Shown here one piece after another: positions 26,478-32,392 of a DNA stretch of 64,000 bases. Each line of letters begins with the position of its first letter. The first letter of the stretch is position 1. Position numbers and translations under genes: made by a program. A model generated the notes under the pieces. That model was not told the origin of the DNA. It searched no databases and saw nothing but the letters and a program-made list of their open reading frames with translations. The stretch comes from Pelosinus fermentans DSM 17108 (GTDB taxonomy: Bacteria; Bacillota; Negativicutes; DSM-13327): contig NZ_AKVN02000001.1 of assembly GCF_000271485.2 (NCBI RefSeq), positions 2,815,501 through 2,879,500 on the forward strand, in the 5' to 3' direction.

Positions 26478-27647
26478 TTATTGATTCACCTGACGTACGA
26501 CGTCAATGACACTGCCATCCCGATATTCTACCACTGCGACAATGCGGTCGCTTGTTGTTAGTTTTTGCGGCACTCCAGCGATCTTCTCAGCCATCGCTTT
26601 TAAGTCTTGAATCTCTTTTACCGGTAAACCCGCTGCCAATAATTGCTGCAGCAACTCTGGACGCTGGGGATTGACGGCCACACCTCGTTCCGTTACTAAT
26701 ACATCAATGGTTTCCCCAGGAGTAGTGGCCGTGAGCACCTGCTCCACAATAATAGGCAGGCGGCCTCGCAGCAGATTGGCAACGACAATCGTTACCTTGG
26801 CTCCAGCGGCGGCATCAGCATGACCGCCAGACCCACCCATGATCACACCATCGGAACCCGTGACTACATTCACATGAAAATCAACAGCGATTTCCGTAGC
26901 TCCCAGCACTACCACATCCAGCTTATTGACAGCACATCCCGCATTAAAAGGACTGGCATAAAAATTTGCGCTTACTTCCAGATGATTGGGATTCGTTTTA
27001 ATGGAGCGGATGGCTTCTAAATCAAAACCCTGTACATCAATGAGCTTTTTAAAAAATCCTTTTTCCAGCATATCCACCATATAACCCGTAATACCACCCA
27101 AAGCAAAACTGCCTACGATGTGCTCCTGCTCCATCCTCTGTCGGACGAAATGAGCAACCGCTAAGGATACGCCGCCAGCCCCTGTCTGGAAAGAGAAGCC
27201 GTTTTTCAGTAATCCCGCAGCCTCAATGACTTTTGCTGCCATAGCAGCAATCTTAAGACCTACAGGGTCCTTAGTGATTTTCGTGGTGCCGGAAACAATG
27301 CCTTGGGGATCACCTGCACAATCCACCTTCACCACATAATCGACTAGGCATTGGGGTATGGAGATGGGCGCTAACGGATACTCTGCGATGTAGTCTGTAA
27401 CGGCTACCACATGATCTGCATATTCCGCATCGGGAAAAGCATACCCTAAAGAACCGCAAGCTGCAGGTCCCTGCACGCCATTGAGGTTTCCATACTCATC
27501 AGCAGCGGGAGCAGCGATAAATGCTACATCAATCAGCAGCTGACCACATTCGATGGCTCGTGCTCTGCCCCCATGGGTTCTAAGTACAACAGCTCGAAAA
27601 TCCCTTTTCTGCATGTCTCCTTTTGCGGGACAATGTTCCTGCCCCAA
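26478..27647 (-). pseudogene. citF: Citrate lyase alpha subunit (citrate CoA-transferase), 5'-truncated
   Basis: The protein reads well as CitF from VVLRTHGGRARAIECGQL to the normal C-terminus (VVEYRDGSVIDVVRQV). The first 130 or so residues of the usual 510 are missing. The coding frame begins only 14 bases after the stop of the upstream gmhB-like gene, which indicates a deletion. Conserved stretches include NGVQGPAACGSLGYAFPDAE and SGGHADAAAGAK. A possible restart ATG (27614) has AAGGAG three bases upstream. None of the partner genes citC, citD, citE, citX or citG is in the window, so a working citrate lyase is unlikely. Confidence 0.82.
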
Positions 27648-27660
27648 TCACTTCTTACAC

Positions 27661-28170
27661 CTATTTATCTTTCAAAATCTCCTGAACAAAATCATGTAAG
27701 TTTCCTTCTACAAACAGATATCCGGGTATTTCGGCCCCCTTTGCTGCATCAATATCTCGCTGCATGTCGCCGACCAAGAACGATCCCTTAAGATCAACCG
27801 GCCATTCCAGACATGCTTGCTCAATGAGCCCCGGTAAAGGCTTACGACAATTGCAAATGGAGGAGTACTTCTCCATCGTCCCTTCTGGATGATGGGGGCA
27901 GACATAAAAAGAGTGAATAATCGCTCCCTGCCTTTCTGCCTCTTGTGCCATAAACTCATGAAAATCATATACTGCTTCTTCTGTAAAAAAGCCTCGGGCA
28001 ATACCGCTTTGGTTGGTAACCACAAATACCAAATACCCCGCTTGGTTCAGCATCCGAATTGCCTCAATCGCCCCGGGCATCCAGGTCATTTCTCTTGGTT
28101 TACAAATATATCCTCGATCCACATTTAATACACCATCGCGATCAAAAAATACCGCTGGTTTTTTATTCAC
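27661..28170 (-). CDS. gmhB: D,D-heptose 1,7-bisphosphate phosphatase-like HAD protein
   Basis: 169 residues from GTG 28170 (GGGAG upstream). HAD motif I is VFFDRDGVLNVDRGY, followed by VVTNQSGIARG (motif II). A Cys/His zinc site reads CPHHPEGT and then CNCRKPLPG, and motif IV is VGDMQRDIDAAK. These fit GmhB, which removes the C7 phosphate in ADP-heptose synthesis for lipopolysaccharide. It fits a diderm host. No other heptose genes are in the window, and it sits downstream of the PTS-gatZ operon, so a different sugar bisphosphate is possible. Confidence 0.85.
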   Translation of the reverse strand: MNKKPAVFFDRDGVLNVDRGYICKPREMTWMPGAIEAIRMLNQAGYLVFVVTNQSGIARGFFTEEAVYDFHEFMAQEAERQGAIIHSFYVCPHHPEGTMEKYSSICNCRKPLPGLIEQACLEWPVDLKGSFLVGDMQRDIDAAKGAEIPGYLFVEGNLHDFVQEILKDK

Positions 28171-28241
28171 GCCTTCACTCTCCCATCTTAAAAAATCCCA
28201 ACTACTACTGACTAGCATCTAAGAAAACTCCCTCCCATCAT

Positions 28242-28288: not shown

Positions 28289-29551
28289 TTAGTTGAGCAG
28301 CTTACTAGTTAACCCTTGCAAATTAAAGCATTGCACATATCGATCAATGGAATTTTTGATCTTATCCAGTATATAGCGATTCCCATCGATTCCTAATGTC
28401 TTCATGTTTGCAAACAGTGTTGTGATTTCTCTCTTCACTTCTTCATTCTCATAGGTATAATGACCGCAAATTTCACATATGGTTTCGGTCAATTCTTCCT
28501 CTGCTAAAATTGCTTCCACAGACAAATGTACGTCATCACCAATCACCCATTTCTTCCATCGACCGCTGTTCACAGCTTCTTCCGACATCACCCGCTTTAA
28601 ATTTGACGGATGCTCCAATCTGCCATTTTCAACTTCCTTCTCTTCTAAGCGAACCAGTTCCAAGTACGCTTTTGTTTCGATATAACCAAACTCCGGAGCT
28701 ACATTCATAGCGGTAATGTGCAAAGAAGGATGGTCGAGGATAATATAGTCCTCCAGATAGTCCCCGTTATGCTCTTTCAAACCGACTTCATATTTTTTAG
28801 CAGTATCCGCTAAGAGCTTTGAGCTATTATAGCTAAACTCTCCCACATTTTTCGTCAATCGGGTCAATGTACCTGTCTGTCCCACGATAAATACAGGACT
28901 GGGAAGTCCTCTCTTAGACAGCTTGGTAGTCAGCTGTCGGATGAATAACTCATAATTCTCCTGACTCGTCAGCCCTCCATTCGTCTCCTCGGTGCCCACT
29001 TCATAACCGATTTCCGGCAACTGCCGAAGCTTTCTTTCATTCTCCACATATGCAATGAGCTCTATGGTTCTGTTGATTACAACATCCATCGCAATGGATT
29101 TTCCCATCACATAAGGATCTTTGGTAGGATCAATATGCAGCAGATCAAAATTGTGAATTAAATCTTCCAGATAAGACCTTTTTGCCAATTCCATCGCAGC
29201 GGCTTCGGACAGATGACTGTTGCGCTCATTATCGCGCTGCCAAGGTCCACCATGGTCCCTGCACAAATAGTAGAGACCTGTAAAATCCACCTCTTTAGCA
29301 ATCTCTTCAATAGCCTCTTTAAATCCTTGCTGATCCCAATTGCAGACATAACCTCCACCCAATTCTTTGGCATCCACTTGGTTGCGACTGGCGATAAACA
29401 GGATGGGAAAATCCTTTTCCTTTGCTAATTCCAGGGATGCGACTATCAAATTTCTGGACATAGGCCCGATGCCTAACAAGGTAGTCCGAAAGCCTGTCTC
29501 TTCCAAGGTAAAAATCTTATCAATCACTTCTCGTATATTCATTTTATTCAT
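28289..29551 (-). CDS. Tagatose-bisphosphate aldolase non-catalytic subunit-like protein (GatZ/KbaZ family)
   Basis: 420 residues from ATG 29551 (GGAGG upstream). Family features are ASRNQVDAKELGGGYVCNW (cf. ATSNQVNQFGGYTG) and LCRDHGGPWQRDNE, a DHxGP loop. In the GatYZ/KbaYZ systems the Z subunit stabilises the catalytic Y aldolase subunit. Here no Y subunit is seen. The gene follows a fructose-type PTS in one operon, so it probably handles the imported sugar phosphate, alone or with a partner encoded elsewhere. It has diverged clearly from classic GatZ. Confidence 0.78.
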   Translation of the reverse strand: MNKMNIREVIDKIFTLEETGFRTTLLGIGPMSRNLIVASLELAKEKDFPILFIASRNQVDAKELGGGYVCNWDQQGFKEAIEEIAKEVDFTGLYYLCRDHGGPWQRDNERNSHLSEAAAMELAKRSYLEDLIHNFDLLHIDPTKDPYVMGKSIAMDVVINRTIELIAYVENERKLRQLPEIGYEVGTEETNGGLTSQENYELFIRQLTTKLSKRGLPSPVFIVGQTGTLTRLTKNVGEFSYNSSKLLADTAKKYEVGLKEHNGDYLEDYIILDHPSLHITAMNVAPEFGYIETKAYLELVRLEEKEVENGRLEHPSNLKRVMSEEAVNSGRWKKWVIGDDVHLSVEAILAEEELTETICEICGHYTYENEEVKREITTLFANMKTLGIDGNRYILDKIKNSIDRYVQCFNLQGLTSKLLN

Positions 29552-29619
29552 TGTAATAATCTCCTCCATTACACCATTTATAACGCACTTGTAGTCATTG
29601 CGAGTACGAAGCAATCCCC

Positions 29620-30681
29620 TCATGCCTGCCTAGCGTATTCTTTGCTGACATCTACTTTTAAGGAATTCACCAGCAATGCCGTAACCACAGTCCCGACAAC
29701 AATCCCCAATATATAAAACAGTGGATTATCAACCACAGGCAATACAATCGGACCACCATGGGGCGCATGATCTGCTACCTTACCTAATGCTCCAATAACG
29801 GCCCCCACTGCCGATCCGGTCATAATAGAAGGCAACACTCGCAAGGGATCTGCGGCAGCAAAGGGAATGGCTCCTTCGGTAATGCCAATCATCCCCATAG
29901 CCAAGGCTGCTTTTCCAGCTTCTAACTCTTCCTCGCTATATTTCCTTCTCGCTAGTAAAGTGGCAAGCCCCATCCCTAAGGGAGGCGTACATATGGCAAT
30001 ACCAATCGGTCCCATGACGGTATACACCCCTTCTGCCATTAGTCCAAAAGCAAACATGCAGGCAGTTTTGTTGACAGGACCACCCATATCAAAAGCAATC
30101 ATAAGACCAGTAATAATAGCAATCACTACAGCCCCTTGCTGGCTGATACTTTTCAATCCATCGGTAATTCCGCCCATAACGGAAGCAATGGGTTGTCCCA
30201 GTAAATAAATATAAGTAAGACCGACGAGTAAGGAACTCAAAATGGGAATCACAAAAATCGGCATAACAGGACGCAAGTAACTAGGAACCTTCCATCCCTT
30301 GATCCATTTCACGATATAGCCGGCAAATAGCCCCATGACAATCGCTCCCAGAAAACCTGCTTTATACGGACTGTCTGCTATCGGCTGGTTTGCCAGATAG
30401 CCGCCGATCATTCCGGGGACAACTCCCGGCTTCCCCGCAAGGCTATAGGCAATATAGCCCGCCAAAATCGGAATCATCAAGGTAAAGCCTGCCACACCGA
30501 TGTTCAATATGTGATTTGCTAAGACACTCGTGACCTCCATACCTTTGGCTCCCGGTGTCCCCGTTGCTAACGCTCCGGCAATACAAATACCACCCACCAC
30601 AACGGATGGAATCATATAGGAAACCCCTGTCATCAGATGGTTTTTCACTTTCTTTAGTTCATCCATTACCAATTCGCTCAT
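29620..30681 (-). CDS. PTS fructose-family IIC permease
   Basis: 353 residues with about ten membrane segments. Family phrases are GVSYMIPSVVVGGICIAGAL, IAFDMGGPVNKTACMFA and ITEGAIPFAAADPLRVLPS, which carry the GGPVNK and GITEGAIPF substrate-translocation signatures. The ATG overlaps the IIB stop by four bases (ATGA), so they are coupled. It forms the membrane channel and works with IIA and IIB from the same operon. The sugar is unknown. Confidence 0.93.
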   Translation of the reverse strand: MSELVMDELKKVKNHLMTGVSYMIPSVVVGGICIAGALATGTPGAKGMEVTSVLANHILNIGVAGFTLMIPILAGYIAYSLAGKPGVVPGMIGGYLANQPIADSPYKAGFLGAIVMGLFAGYIVKWIKGWKVPSYLRPVMPIFVIPILSSLLVGLTYIYLLGQPIASVMGGITDGLKSISQQGAVVIAIITGLMIAFDMGGPVNKTACMFAFGLMAEGVYTVMGPIGIAICTPPLGMGLATLLARRKYSEEELEAGKAALAMGMIGITEGAIPFAAADPLRVLPSIMTGSAVGAVIGALGKVADHAPHGGPIVLPVVDNPLFYILGIVVGTVVTALLVNSLKVDVSKEYARQA

Positions 30682-30992
30682 ACCTCTTCCCCCTTCTTTT
30701 CTGCTTTCTCGATCACAGCAACCGGATTCTCAATCGCCTTGCCAACTTCCACCATGATGCTTGGCTTACCATGAAACCGTTCTTCCCCTTCTACGTTCAC
30801 ACCCACGGCAAAAATAACAACATTAGCTTCTGCCACATCCTGCATTGACAGCTCATTCTCAATTCCCATCGCTCCTTGGGTTTCAATCTTGATATCATGC
30901 CCCCTAGTCATTGCAGCTTTCTCCAAGGCAGCCTGAGCCATATACGTATGGGCAATCCCCGTTGGACATGCACATACACTAATCATTTTCAA
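30678..30992 (-). CDS. PTS fructose-family IIB protein
   Basis: 104 residues from TTG 30992, giving MKMISVCACPTGIAHTYMAQ. The GGGGG RBS is seven bases upstream; an ATG two codons later is the alternative. The phosphorylated cysteine is in CACPTGIAHT. It passes the phosphoryl group from IIA to the sugar bound by IIC. It is coupled to the IIC gene. Confidence 0.92.
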   Translation of the reverse strand: MKMISVCACPTGIAHTYMAQAALEKAAMTRGHDIKIETQGAMGIENELSMQDVAEANVVIFAVGVNVEGEERFHGKPSIMVEVGKAIENPVAVIEKAEKKGEEV

Positions 30993-31028
30993 AGCACTTC
31001 CCCCTTTCACTTCTAGATTCGAACCATC

Positions 31029-31069
31029 CAATTCCCCTCTTGAGAGGGATGCCTTCAGGCGGGGTGTGT
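31029..31069. repeat. REP-like palindromic repeat, copy 2
   Basis: Identical to copy 1 for the first 20 bases, then with a compensated change in the second stem (GCCTTCAGGC). It ends with the same GGGGTGTGT. It lies between the IIA and IIB genes. Confidence 0.7.
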
Positions 31070-31082
31070 CACGTCCCCCTCC

Positions 31083-31529
31083 CTATAACCCCATCTCTCC
31101 GAATATTGTGACTATTCCTGCTGCACTTGTAGCCTGTACTAACCTTTCCCTATAAGAATCATTCATCAGACCCCTACTGATATTCGCTAAGATTTTCAAA
31201 TGCAAATCATTCGCTCTCTCCTCTGGTACGCCAATGAGGAAAATAAGTCTGACTTCCTGATCGGTCCTGCTATCCCAGCTAAAGGCTTCTTGGCTTTTGG
31301 CAAAAGCGATAAAGGGCTCCTTCACATAGCTGCTTTTGCCATGAGGAATCGCGATACCATAGCCGATGGCAGTAGAAAATAACTCTTCCCGCGCAAGAAC
31401 TGCCTGCATATAGCCTGCAACATCACTGACACGACCAAGTTCCCCTGCTTTTCGGGCTAAAGTTTTAATGATTTCGTCTTTGTTCTTCGACGTTACATTT
31501 AATTCGATAAGTGATTCATGGATGATCAT
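31083..31529 (-). CDS. PTS fructose/mannitol-family IIA protein (canonical)
   Basis: 148 residues from ATG 31529 (GGGGG RBS). The phosphorylated histidine is present in GYGIAIPHGKSSYVKEP. The protein begins MIIHESLIELNVTSKNK and ends FGEMGL. It receives the phosphoryl group from HPr. It is 43 bp downstream of a close paralogue. Confidence 0.93.
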   Translation of the reverse strand: MIIHESLIELNVTSKNKDEIIKTLARKAGELGRVSDVAGYMQAVLAREELFSTAIGYGIAIPHGKSSYVKEPFIAFAKSQEAFSWDSRTDQEVRLIFLIGVPEERANDLHLKILANISRGLMNDSYRERLVQATSAAGIVTIFGEMGL

Positions 31530-31571
31530 TTTTCGCCCCCATTCCATTTTTTAATACAACTATGATCAGAC

Positions 31572-32018
31572 CTACAGTCCCATTTCTTTAAATAGTTCCA
31601 CCACTTCCGCTGCATCGGAAGTCTGCAGGAACCGCCTCCTAAAGGACTCATTCGTGAGACCGCCACTCATATGGGTTAACATTTGAAAATCGAAATCATC
31701 ATCCTGCTCTTCTGGTATGCCAATAAGAAAAATGAGTCTCGCTTCATGATCGACTCGATGATCCCAAGTAAATGCTTCCTCACTTCTGGCAAAAGCGATG
31801 AAAGGAGTCAGGACATAGCGACCTTTGCCGTAGGGAATGGCAATGCCATAGCCGAAGGCAATAGGCAAAGATTCATCCAGAGCAAAGACATCTTTCAGAT
31901 AGCCTTCTACTTCACTGATACAACTAAGCTCCTTCGCCTTATGGGCTAGGGTTTCGATAATTTCCATTTTGCTTTTAGACTTCATATGGAGTTCGATAAG
32001 TGATTCGTGAATGATCAT
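31572..32018 (-). CDS. PTS IIA paralogue with the active-site His replaced by Tyr
   Basis: 148 residues, aligned end to end with the next gene (MIIHESLIEL at the start, EMGL at the end). The catalytic loop reads GYGIAIPYGKGRYVLTP: Tyr (codon 31832-31830, TAC) stands where His is phosphorylated. It is the first gene of the operon and has a good RBS (GGAGG), so it is expressed as an intact protein. It cannot accept phosphate from HPr by the usual chemistry, so a regulatory or structural role is likely. Confidence 0.9.
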   Translation of the reverse strand: MIIHESLIELHMKSKSKMEIIETLAHKAKELSCISEVEGYLKDVFALDESLPIAFGYGIAIPYGKGRYVLTPFIAFARSEEAFTWDHRVDHEARLIFLIGIPEEQDDDFDFQMLTHMSGGLTNESFRRRFLQTSDAAEVVELFKEMGL

Positions 32019-32392
32019 TTGCTTTCAATCCTCCAGCGATAGTTAATATTCTAAAAAAAACATTTTAAAGATTTTCCAGAAAAATAGATTTAGTATTTTC
32101 TTTTCGCTATACTATAGATAACTGCAACAGGAATTTTTTTACTTCTAGTCTCCTTTCACTTGCAAAATTGCTCATGCAATATCATTGGCTCGTACTTTCA
32201 AAACTCGCAGACTTTATGTATTGAGTTGAAAAGATTGTCCCATTATAAAAGAACCTTCTCAGTCTCTAAGCCGTCACTTTTTAGTCACCTCGTTTTTTAT
32301 TATACATTGCCGTCACCTAGCCGTCAATAAACCATAACAAATTATTTTGCTATATATTAAAGTTGTCACTATGACTATATGGAGGGATTGAA
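32019..32392. other. Intergenic region between the PTS operon and the RHH gene, with GTCA repeats
   Basis: 374 bp, AT-rich, no gene. It holds GTCAC at 32273, 32284, 32312 and 32365, and GTCAA at 32323. They form two pairs with 11-bp spacing (32273/32284 and 32312/32323). This would suit a ribbon-helix-helix protein, and such a protein is encoded next to it. Confidence 0.55.

Follow-up and report, generated by a model that had tools for sequence, protein, structure and literature searches.

The closest described relatives of the protein discussed here are the IIA proteins of the PTS_EIIA_2 family (PF00359), which includes the fructose/mannitol IIA proteins and PtsN (IIANtr). An Arg at position 47 supports the phosphotransfer chemistry in IIA proteins, and we take Arg47, His63, and His110 of the family studied here to be the phosphorylated His and the Arg/His supports of IIAMtl and IIANtr. 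PDB alignments place Arg, His, and His at the active site of PtsN proteins as well. PtsN is an IIA without dedicated IIB or IIC that regulates its partners by binding; in its unphosphorylated form it acts on KdpD (PMC3665714), and it inhibits GlmS in a phosphorylation-dependent manner (PMC5024086). Replacement of the active His is known from Crh, the catabolite-control paralogue of HPr in Bacillus and its relatives, in which His15 is exchanged (for Gln in the Crh of P. thermoglucosidasius); Crh exerts its effect by binding to other proteins (PMC9631020). In the PRD/EIIB-like regulators (PCVRs, e.g., AtxA and Mga), the PTS phosphosites either lack spatial conservation or are perhaps vestigial (PMC8560693). 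We found no report of a His-less EIIA in the open-access literature, which does not prove absence.

The present analysis concerns a stretch of 64,000 nucleotides from Pelosinus fermentans DSM 17108, hereafter the window, in which a fructose-type operon carries two IIA genes in tandem (Table 1). The gene order is IIA-Tyr, IIA-His, IIB, IIC, a gene for a GatZ/KbaZ-like protein, and one for an HAD phosphatase, GmhB-like by its motifs. The first-pass annotation had described the two IIA proteins as aligning over 148 residues, with IPYGK in IIA-Tyr and IPHGK in IIA-His, and BLASTP bears this out, giving an ungapped full-length alignment with 85/148 identical residues (57%) and with Tyr63 facing His63. 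The open frame of IIA-His reaches position 31547, and an RBS-like GGGGG in the intergenic sequence precedes the ATG at 31529. A terminator-like site was looked for in the gap between the two genes, and none was found. Downstream of the operon, the CitF of the window is without roughly the first 97-120 profile positions. In relatives, a citrate-type sensor kinase, a response regulator, a transporter, citD, and citE lie between the phosphatase and CitF, and a deletion therefore seems to have joined these two genes in the window genome.

Table 1. Features of the tandem IIA locus and of related loci; positions without a locus label are those of the window.
Feature	Position	Strand	Remarks
Conserved element TATAGTATAGCGAAAAGAAAA upstream of first IIA gene	32096-32116	minus	~80 bp before gene
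GGAGG, ribosome-binding-like site of IIA-Tyr	32030-32034	minus	11 nt 5' of ATG
IIA-Tyr, PTS_EIIA_2 family	31572-32018	minus	148 aa, ATG start; R47L, H63Y, H110D
IIA-His, intact paralogue	31083-31529	minus	148 aa from ATG in register; R47, H63, H110
Cognate IIB (PTS_IIB)	30678-31031	minus	Pfam domain
Cognate IIC (PTS_EIIC)	29620-30681	minus	Pfam domain
GatZ/KbaZ-like protein	28289-29623	minus	same operon as IIA pair
HAD phosphatase of IIA operon	27661-28218	minus	GmhB-like by motifs
CitF (citrate lyase alpha) open frame	26478-27647	minus	directly 3' of HAD phosphatase gene
GmhB-like HAD phosphatase beside lone Tyr-IIA	L046 4882-5391	minus	
GmhB-like HAD phosphatase beside lone Tyr-IIA	L048 3636-4094	plus	
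Divergent XRE regulator (HTH_3/HTH_26)	L041 7384-7725; L042 6972-7313; L046 6603-6944; L043 6911-7252		113 aa, adjoining IIA gene

The Tyr form of IIA is found at one chromosomal locus in 5/8 Pelosinus genomes, where it falls into two lineages: Y1, comprising the window genome, P. fermentans JBW45 (G003), and G004, and Y2, comprising contig 105 of G001 and G007. Among named relatives, JBW45 is nearest to the window genome, with 92% identity of the Tyr protein. Pattern scans of 380 genomes of the class returned 22 matches, and the five Pelosinus loci are the only IIA genes among them; no Tyr motif was thus found in an IIA gene of these genomes outside Pelosinus by patterns that fix the motif and would overlook a Tyr copy whose loop differs. 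A narrower pattern applied to 299 genomes of the phylum matched the window itself and nothing else, and a scan of genome contigs for related loci gave only JBW45 and one distant spirochaete. The distribution of Tyr-IIA is narrow, with a single locus in five genomes of one genus. Four further operons of this IIA family, located elsewhere in G001, JBW45, G005, and G006, each have a single IIA-His.

Relative to IIA-His, the exchange of His63 for Tyr in IIA-Tyr is accompanied by R47L and H110D. Since Arg47 and His110 are replaced besides His63, the entire phosphotransfer site is lost. Positions 47, 63, and 110 are occupied by L, Y, and D in the Tyr proteins of the window and of JBW45 and by L, Y, and E in that of G004; the phosphorylatable His of a working IIA is thus missing in 3/3 Y1 orthologues, as are the supporting Arg and second His (R47L and H110D/E). 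The three residues are invariant in 6/6 His copies of this IIA family, and the phosphosite column holds a His in all 42 other IIA_2 domains sampled from the window genome and its relatives. Judging from these residues, IIA-Tyr is almost certainly catalytically dead as a phosphocarrier. Phosphorylation could instead take place elsewhere, namely at Tyr63 itself or at His116. The latter arises from N116H, is fixed in 3/3 Y1 proteins, and lies on the predicted helix (residues 107-122 of the model) that formerly carried His110, which would suit such a role. However, Arg47 is lost as well, Y2 has no His116, and phosphorylation of Tyr by HPr is not known; a phosphorylated IIA-Tyr is accordingly very improbable in our judgment.

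Apart from the replacement of the phosphorylated His and of the accompanying Arg and second His, IIA-Tyr resembles the PTS_EIIA_2 proteins in its sequence, its predicted fold, and its operon with IIB and IIC. The match to the Pfam profile (4.9e-24, compared to 7.1e-39 for IIA-His) scores 85.4 bits against a cut-off of 27 and extends over profile positions 2-143 of 144, i.e., over the full domain. The AlphaFold2 model, built with 14 sequences, has a pLDDT of 90 and a pTM of 0.87, and Foldseek places it on the IIANtr/IIAMtl structures 2a0j, 1a6j, and 1a3a with TM values of 0.80-0.85, as expected for the IIA fold. The active-site loop GYGIA-P-G is retained. In addition, the N-terminal MIIHESLI (residues 1-8) and the C-terminal EMGL are invariant in 11/11 members of the family, Tyr or His, and are not conserved in three more distant IIAs of the window genome, which makes these termini candidate binding surfaces.

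The selection acting on the Tyr copy was evaluated by a branch codon model (GY type, F3x4, 11 sequences). The ω values obtained are 0.21 for the Y1 Tyr branches, 0.22 for the His branches, 0.23 for the Y2 tips, and 0.34 for the Y2 stem, where a value below 1 reports past constraint and not current function. The tests reject an ω of 1 for Y1 (p = 1.7e-13), for the Y2 tips (p = 4e-6), and for the Y2 stem (p = 0.005), and the Y1 value does not differ from that of the His branches (p = 0.8). When the branches are split further, each tested Tyr class still lies significantly below 1. The model assumes a single tree, and recombination at the locus is likely, because G003 and G004 share upstream DNA that is 94% identical and yet have far less similar IIA-Tyr proteins, the G004 protein being 72% identical to that of the window with a dS of ~1. 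The tree-based numbers are thereby weakened, while the pairwise comparison of the window genome with JBW45 is unaffected. This tree-free comparison is the cleanest control and shows the two copies to be equally diverged and equally constrained (dN 0.037, dS 0.168, ω 0.22 for IIA-Tyr; dN 0.038, dS 0.162, ω 0.24 for IIA-His). In the same comparison, IIC has 1 amino-acid difference in 353 residues and an ω of 0.009, and is far more constrained than the IIA or IIB of the operon.

These values agree with the first-pass annotation, which had called the Tyr copy maintained on the grounds of its first place in the operon, its strong ribosome-binding site, and its intact frame; a GGAGG precedes the ATG, and the copy is as constrained as its His neighbor. 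It had also named poor conservation of the Tyr copy among relatives as the mark of a pseudogene, and the Tyr is instead present in 3/3 orthologues. A pseudogene was rejected on the ω tests and on the equal divergence of both copies from JBW45. A related possibility is that of a relic in slow decay, for which the low ω would stem from ancient constraint, from conversion by the His copy, or from a lag after inactivation. It would fit with the loss of genes from the locus by deletion in several strains, with the single C-to-T change that suffices to turn His into Tyr, and with the truncated phosphatase adjacent to the G007 gene, which has lost its nucleophile. Moreover, H63Y in Y2 is one of 7 changes among 91 positions invariant in the His copies and is thus unsurprising by itself. 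However, the Tyr and the working copy have evolved with equal ω during the same period, and the Y2 tips remain constrained although they probably lie wholly after the loss of the transporter. Frame and start are intact in 5/5 Tyr-IIA genes, the upstream element is retained, and conversion has not homogenized the paralogues, which are only 57% identical. We therefore consider a decaying relic unlikely.

The surroundings of the Tyr genes bear on what the protein is needed for. At three loci (G004, G001 contig 105, and G007), the Tyr-IIA stands without an adjacent cognate IIB, IIC, or GatZ-like aldolase, and the Tyr protein there is therefore not needed by an adjacent cognate IIB/IIC. No close homologues of IIB, IIC, or the GatZ-like protein were found in G004, and no close IIB in G007, both being draft genomes of 83-85% completeness; G001 retains a complete His operon elsewhere in its genome. 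At the G004 locus, genes for an argH-like lyase and an anaerobic C4-dicarboxylate transporter of the DcuA/B family come shortly after the lone Tyr-IIA and in its orientation (L042 3004-5886, minus). Only a GmhB-like phosphatase follows the Tyr-IIA in G001 contig 105 and G007, and this phosphatase has itself lost catalytic residues: the Lys of motif III is changed to Met (CRKP to CRMP), and the Asp of motif IV is lost (GDMQRD to SGTQRG or GGTQRD). The G007 enzyme is also without the nucleophile Asp and the C-terminus, and the two phosphatases differ by a dN of 0.051 and a dS of 0.364. All five Tyr loci adjoin an HAD phosphatase that by resemblance is of the PSPase/MtnX type, and a citrate-type sensor kinase lies beside four of them and is missing in the window genome. 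No likely partner gene common to all five loci was found among the neighbors; the XRE regulator described below is absent from the window genome, the operon HAD phosphatase from G004, and IIB/IIC from three loci.

The persistence of Tyr-IIA without cognate IIB and IIC argues against the idea, put forward in the first-pass annotation, of a dead IIA that competes for IIB. More generally, IIA-Tyr could be a decoy or brake inside the PTS, docking to HPr~P or IIB without phosphate transfer and thereby slowing or reporting the phosphotransfer of its own operon. The position of IIA-Tyr as the first gene, with no terminator-like site before IIA-His, and the preserved active-site loop are consistent with such a role, and docking to HPr may survive in Y2, where His110 (in G001 also Arg47) is kept. 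On the other hand, the Y1-specific changes at positions invariant in the His copies are concentrated in the segments of the catalytic residues (14/35 vs 4/56 elsewhere, Fisher p = 2e-4, indicative only, as the segments were defined along the sequence, not by distance, and were picked after the alignment had been seen). With most of these changes on the catalytic segments, binding of a target elsewhere is more likely than an HPr decoy. The suggestion that the protein competes for HPr or senses the PTS state is thus weakened for the window copy and may hold for Y2, and we assign a low probability to a decoy within the PTS.

The tandem, co-oriented arrangement, the shared family-specific termini, and the equal evolutionary rates of the two copies would also be expected if IIA-Tyr were a partner subunit, forming a heteromer with IIA-His (or stabilizing IIB) and modulating it allosterically. 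Such an arrangement is difficult to reconcile with G004 and G007, which have no close His paralogue (the next matches have E values of at least 2e-14 and 2e-10, respectively), and with the single IIA in most operons of the family. We consider this explanation quite improbable.

Concerning the origin of the Tyr forms, Y2 clusters with the IIA-His of the window and not with Y1 (support 91 for protein, 94 for DNA), and the best tree has two origins of Tyr. A single origin of all Tyr copies is disfavored but not rejected (AU p = 0.067 for DNA and 0.071 for protein). Gene conversion over a short tract at codon 63 is possible, the CCC-TAT being common to Y2 and the Y1 gene of JBW45. The leader of the G001 Y2 gene still matches the intergenic sequence between the Y1 and His genes of the window, as though a tandem there had lost its Y1 copy by deletion.

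Upstream of the first IIA gene, an element, TATAGTATADCGAAAARAAAA, is common to all operons of this IIA family and to the lone Tyr-IIA loci. In the five genomes with a match, it occurs once or twice in each, always in front of an IIA gene of the family; in G006 and G007, its presence is seen from the alignment. The element, TATAGTATADCGAAAAGAAAA, is likely a promoter and/or an operator. The first-pass annotation had suggested looking for binding to an RHH regulator, and no such gene was found beside the IIA genes. The relatives have instead a divergent XRE/HTH_3 gene upstream of IIA (in G003, G004, G001, and G006; 91-100% identical in three and 64% in G006), which has been lost from the window genome without a trace, and G007 carries a different HTH gene at this position. 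Control solely via the adjacent XRE was consequently rejected.

On balance, we lean, with slightly more confidence than an even chance would give, toward IIA-Tyr as a pseudoenzyme under selection, probably a permanent dephospho-IIA signal that binds a target outside the phosphorelay. The protein probably acts by binding and not by passing phosphate, because it has been preserved as strictly as the His copy and because the Tyr form outlives the matching transporter. Against this reading speak the narrow distribution of Tyr-IIA and the finding that none of the neighboring genes suited to be a partner is shared by all five loci. In the proposed scheme, the IIA gene of a Pelosinus operon of the type IIA-IIB-IIC-GatZ-like-HAD phosphatase would have been duplicated; the first copy would have shed His63, Arg47, and His110 and retained a binding role, the second would have retained the transport role, and a later deletion of the transport genes would have left behind a Tyr form of IIA. 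Unable to take phosphate from HPr~P by known chemistry, and with its IIA fold and family-specific surfaces preserved, IIA-Tyr would be locked as a dephospho-IIA signal, uncoupled from the phosphorelay and binding its target protein. A broader version, which we offer only tentatively, is that this IIA lineage has given up phosphotransfer chemistry more than once at a single locus, its members being kept as pure binding regulators that outlive their transporter, as the IIA counterpart of Crh; in G001 and G007, beside a phosphatase with lost catalytic residues, this would amount to a two-protein pseudoenzyme cassette.

Like Crh, IIA-Tyr is a conserved phosphocarrier paralogue under selection in which the active His has been replaced. 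Crh, however, adopts the HPr fold and responds to phosphorylation of Ser46 as its switch, whereas IIA-Tyr has the IIA fold and no known switch; since it lacks the HPr fold with Ser46, IIA-Tyr is analogous to Crh and not a Crh. With PtsN it shares the fold; a Tyr-IIA without dedicated IIB/IIC is seen at the three lone loci and not in the window, where both are present. PtsN keeps its His and is phospho-switched, whereas IIA-Tyr would be locked. The PCVRs are similar in that PTS-derived domains have been retained for regulation, and they differ in that these are domains of transcription factors, while IIA-Tyr is free-standing. The first-pass annotation had called such control a type unfamiliar to it from the fructose family; no published IIA of this sort was found in the open-access literature, but Crh provides something of a precedent (PMC9631020).

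A practical consequence is that the Pfam annotation, which labels IIA-Tyr as a working PTS IIA, is almost certainly wrong. If the proposed explanation is true, the jobs of IIA as phosphate carrier and as regulatory binder would be naturally split within one operon, between paralogues that are 57% identical, and an IIA case would be added beside Crh. The surfaces and targets of IIA regulation would then become directly testable in a diderm Firmicute lineage.
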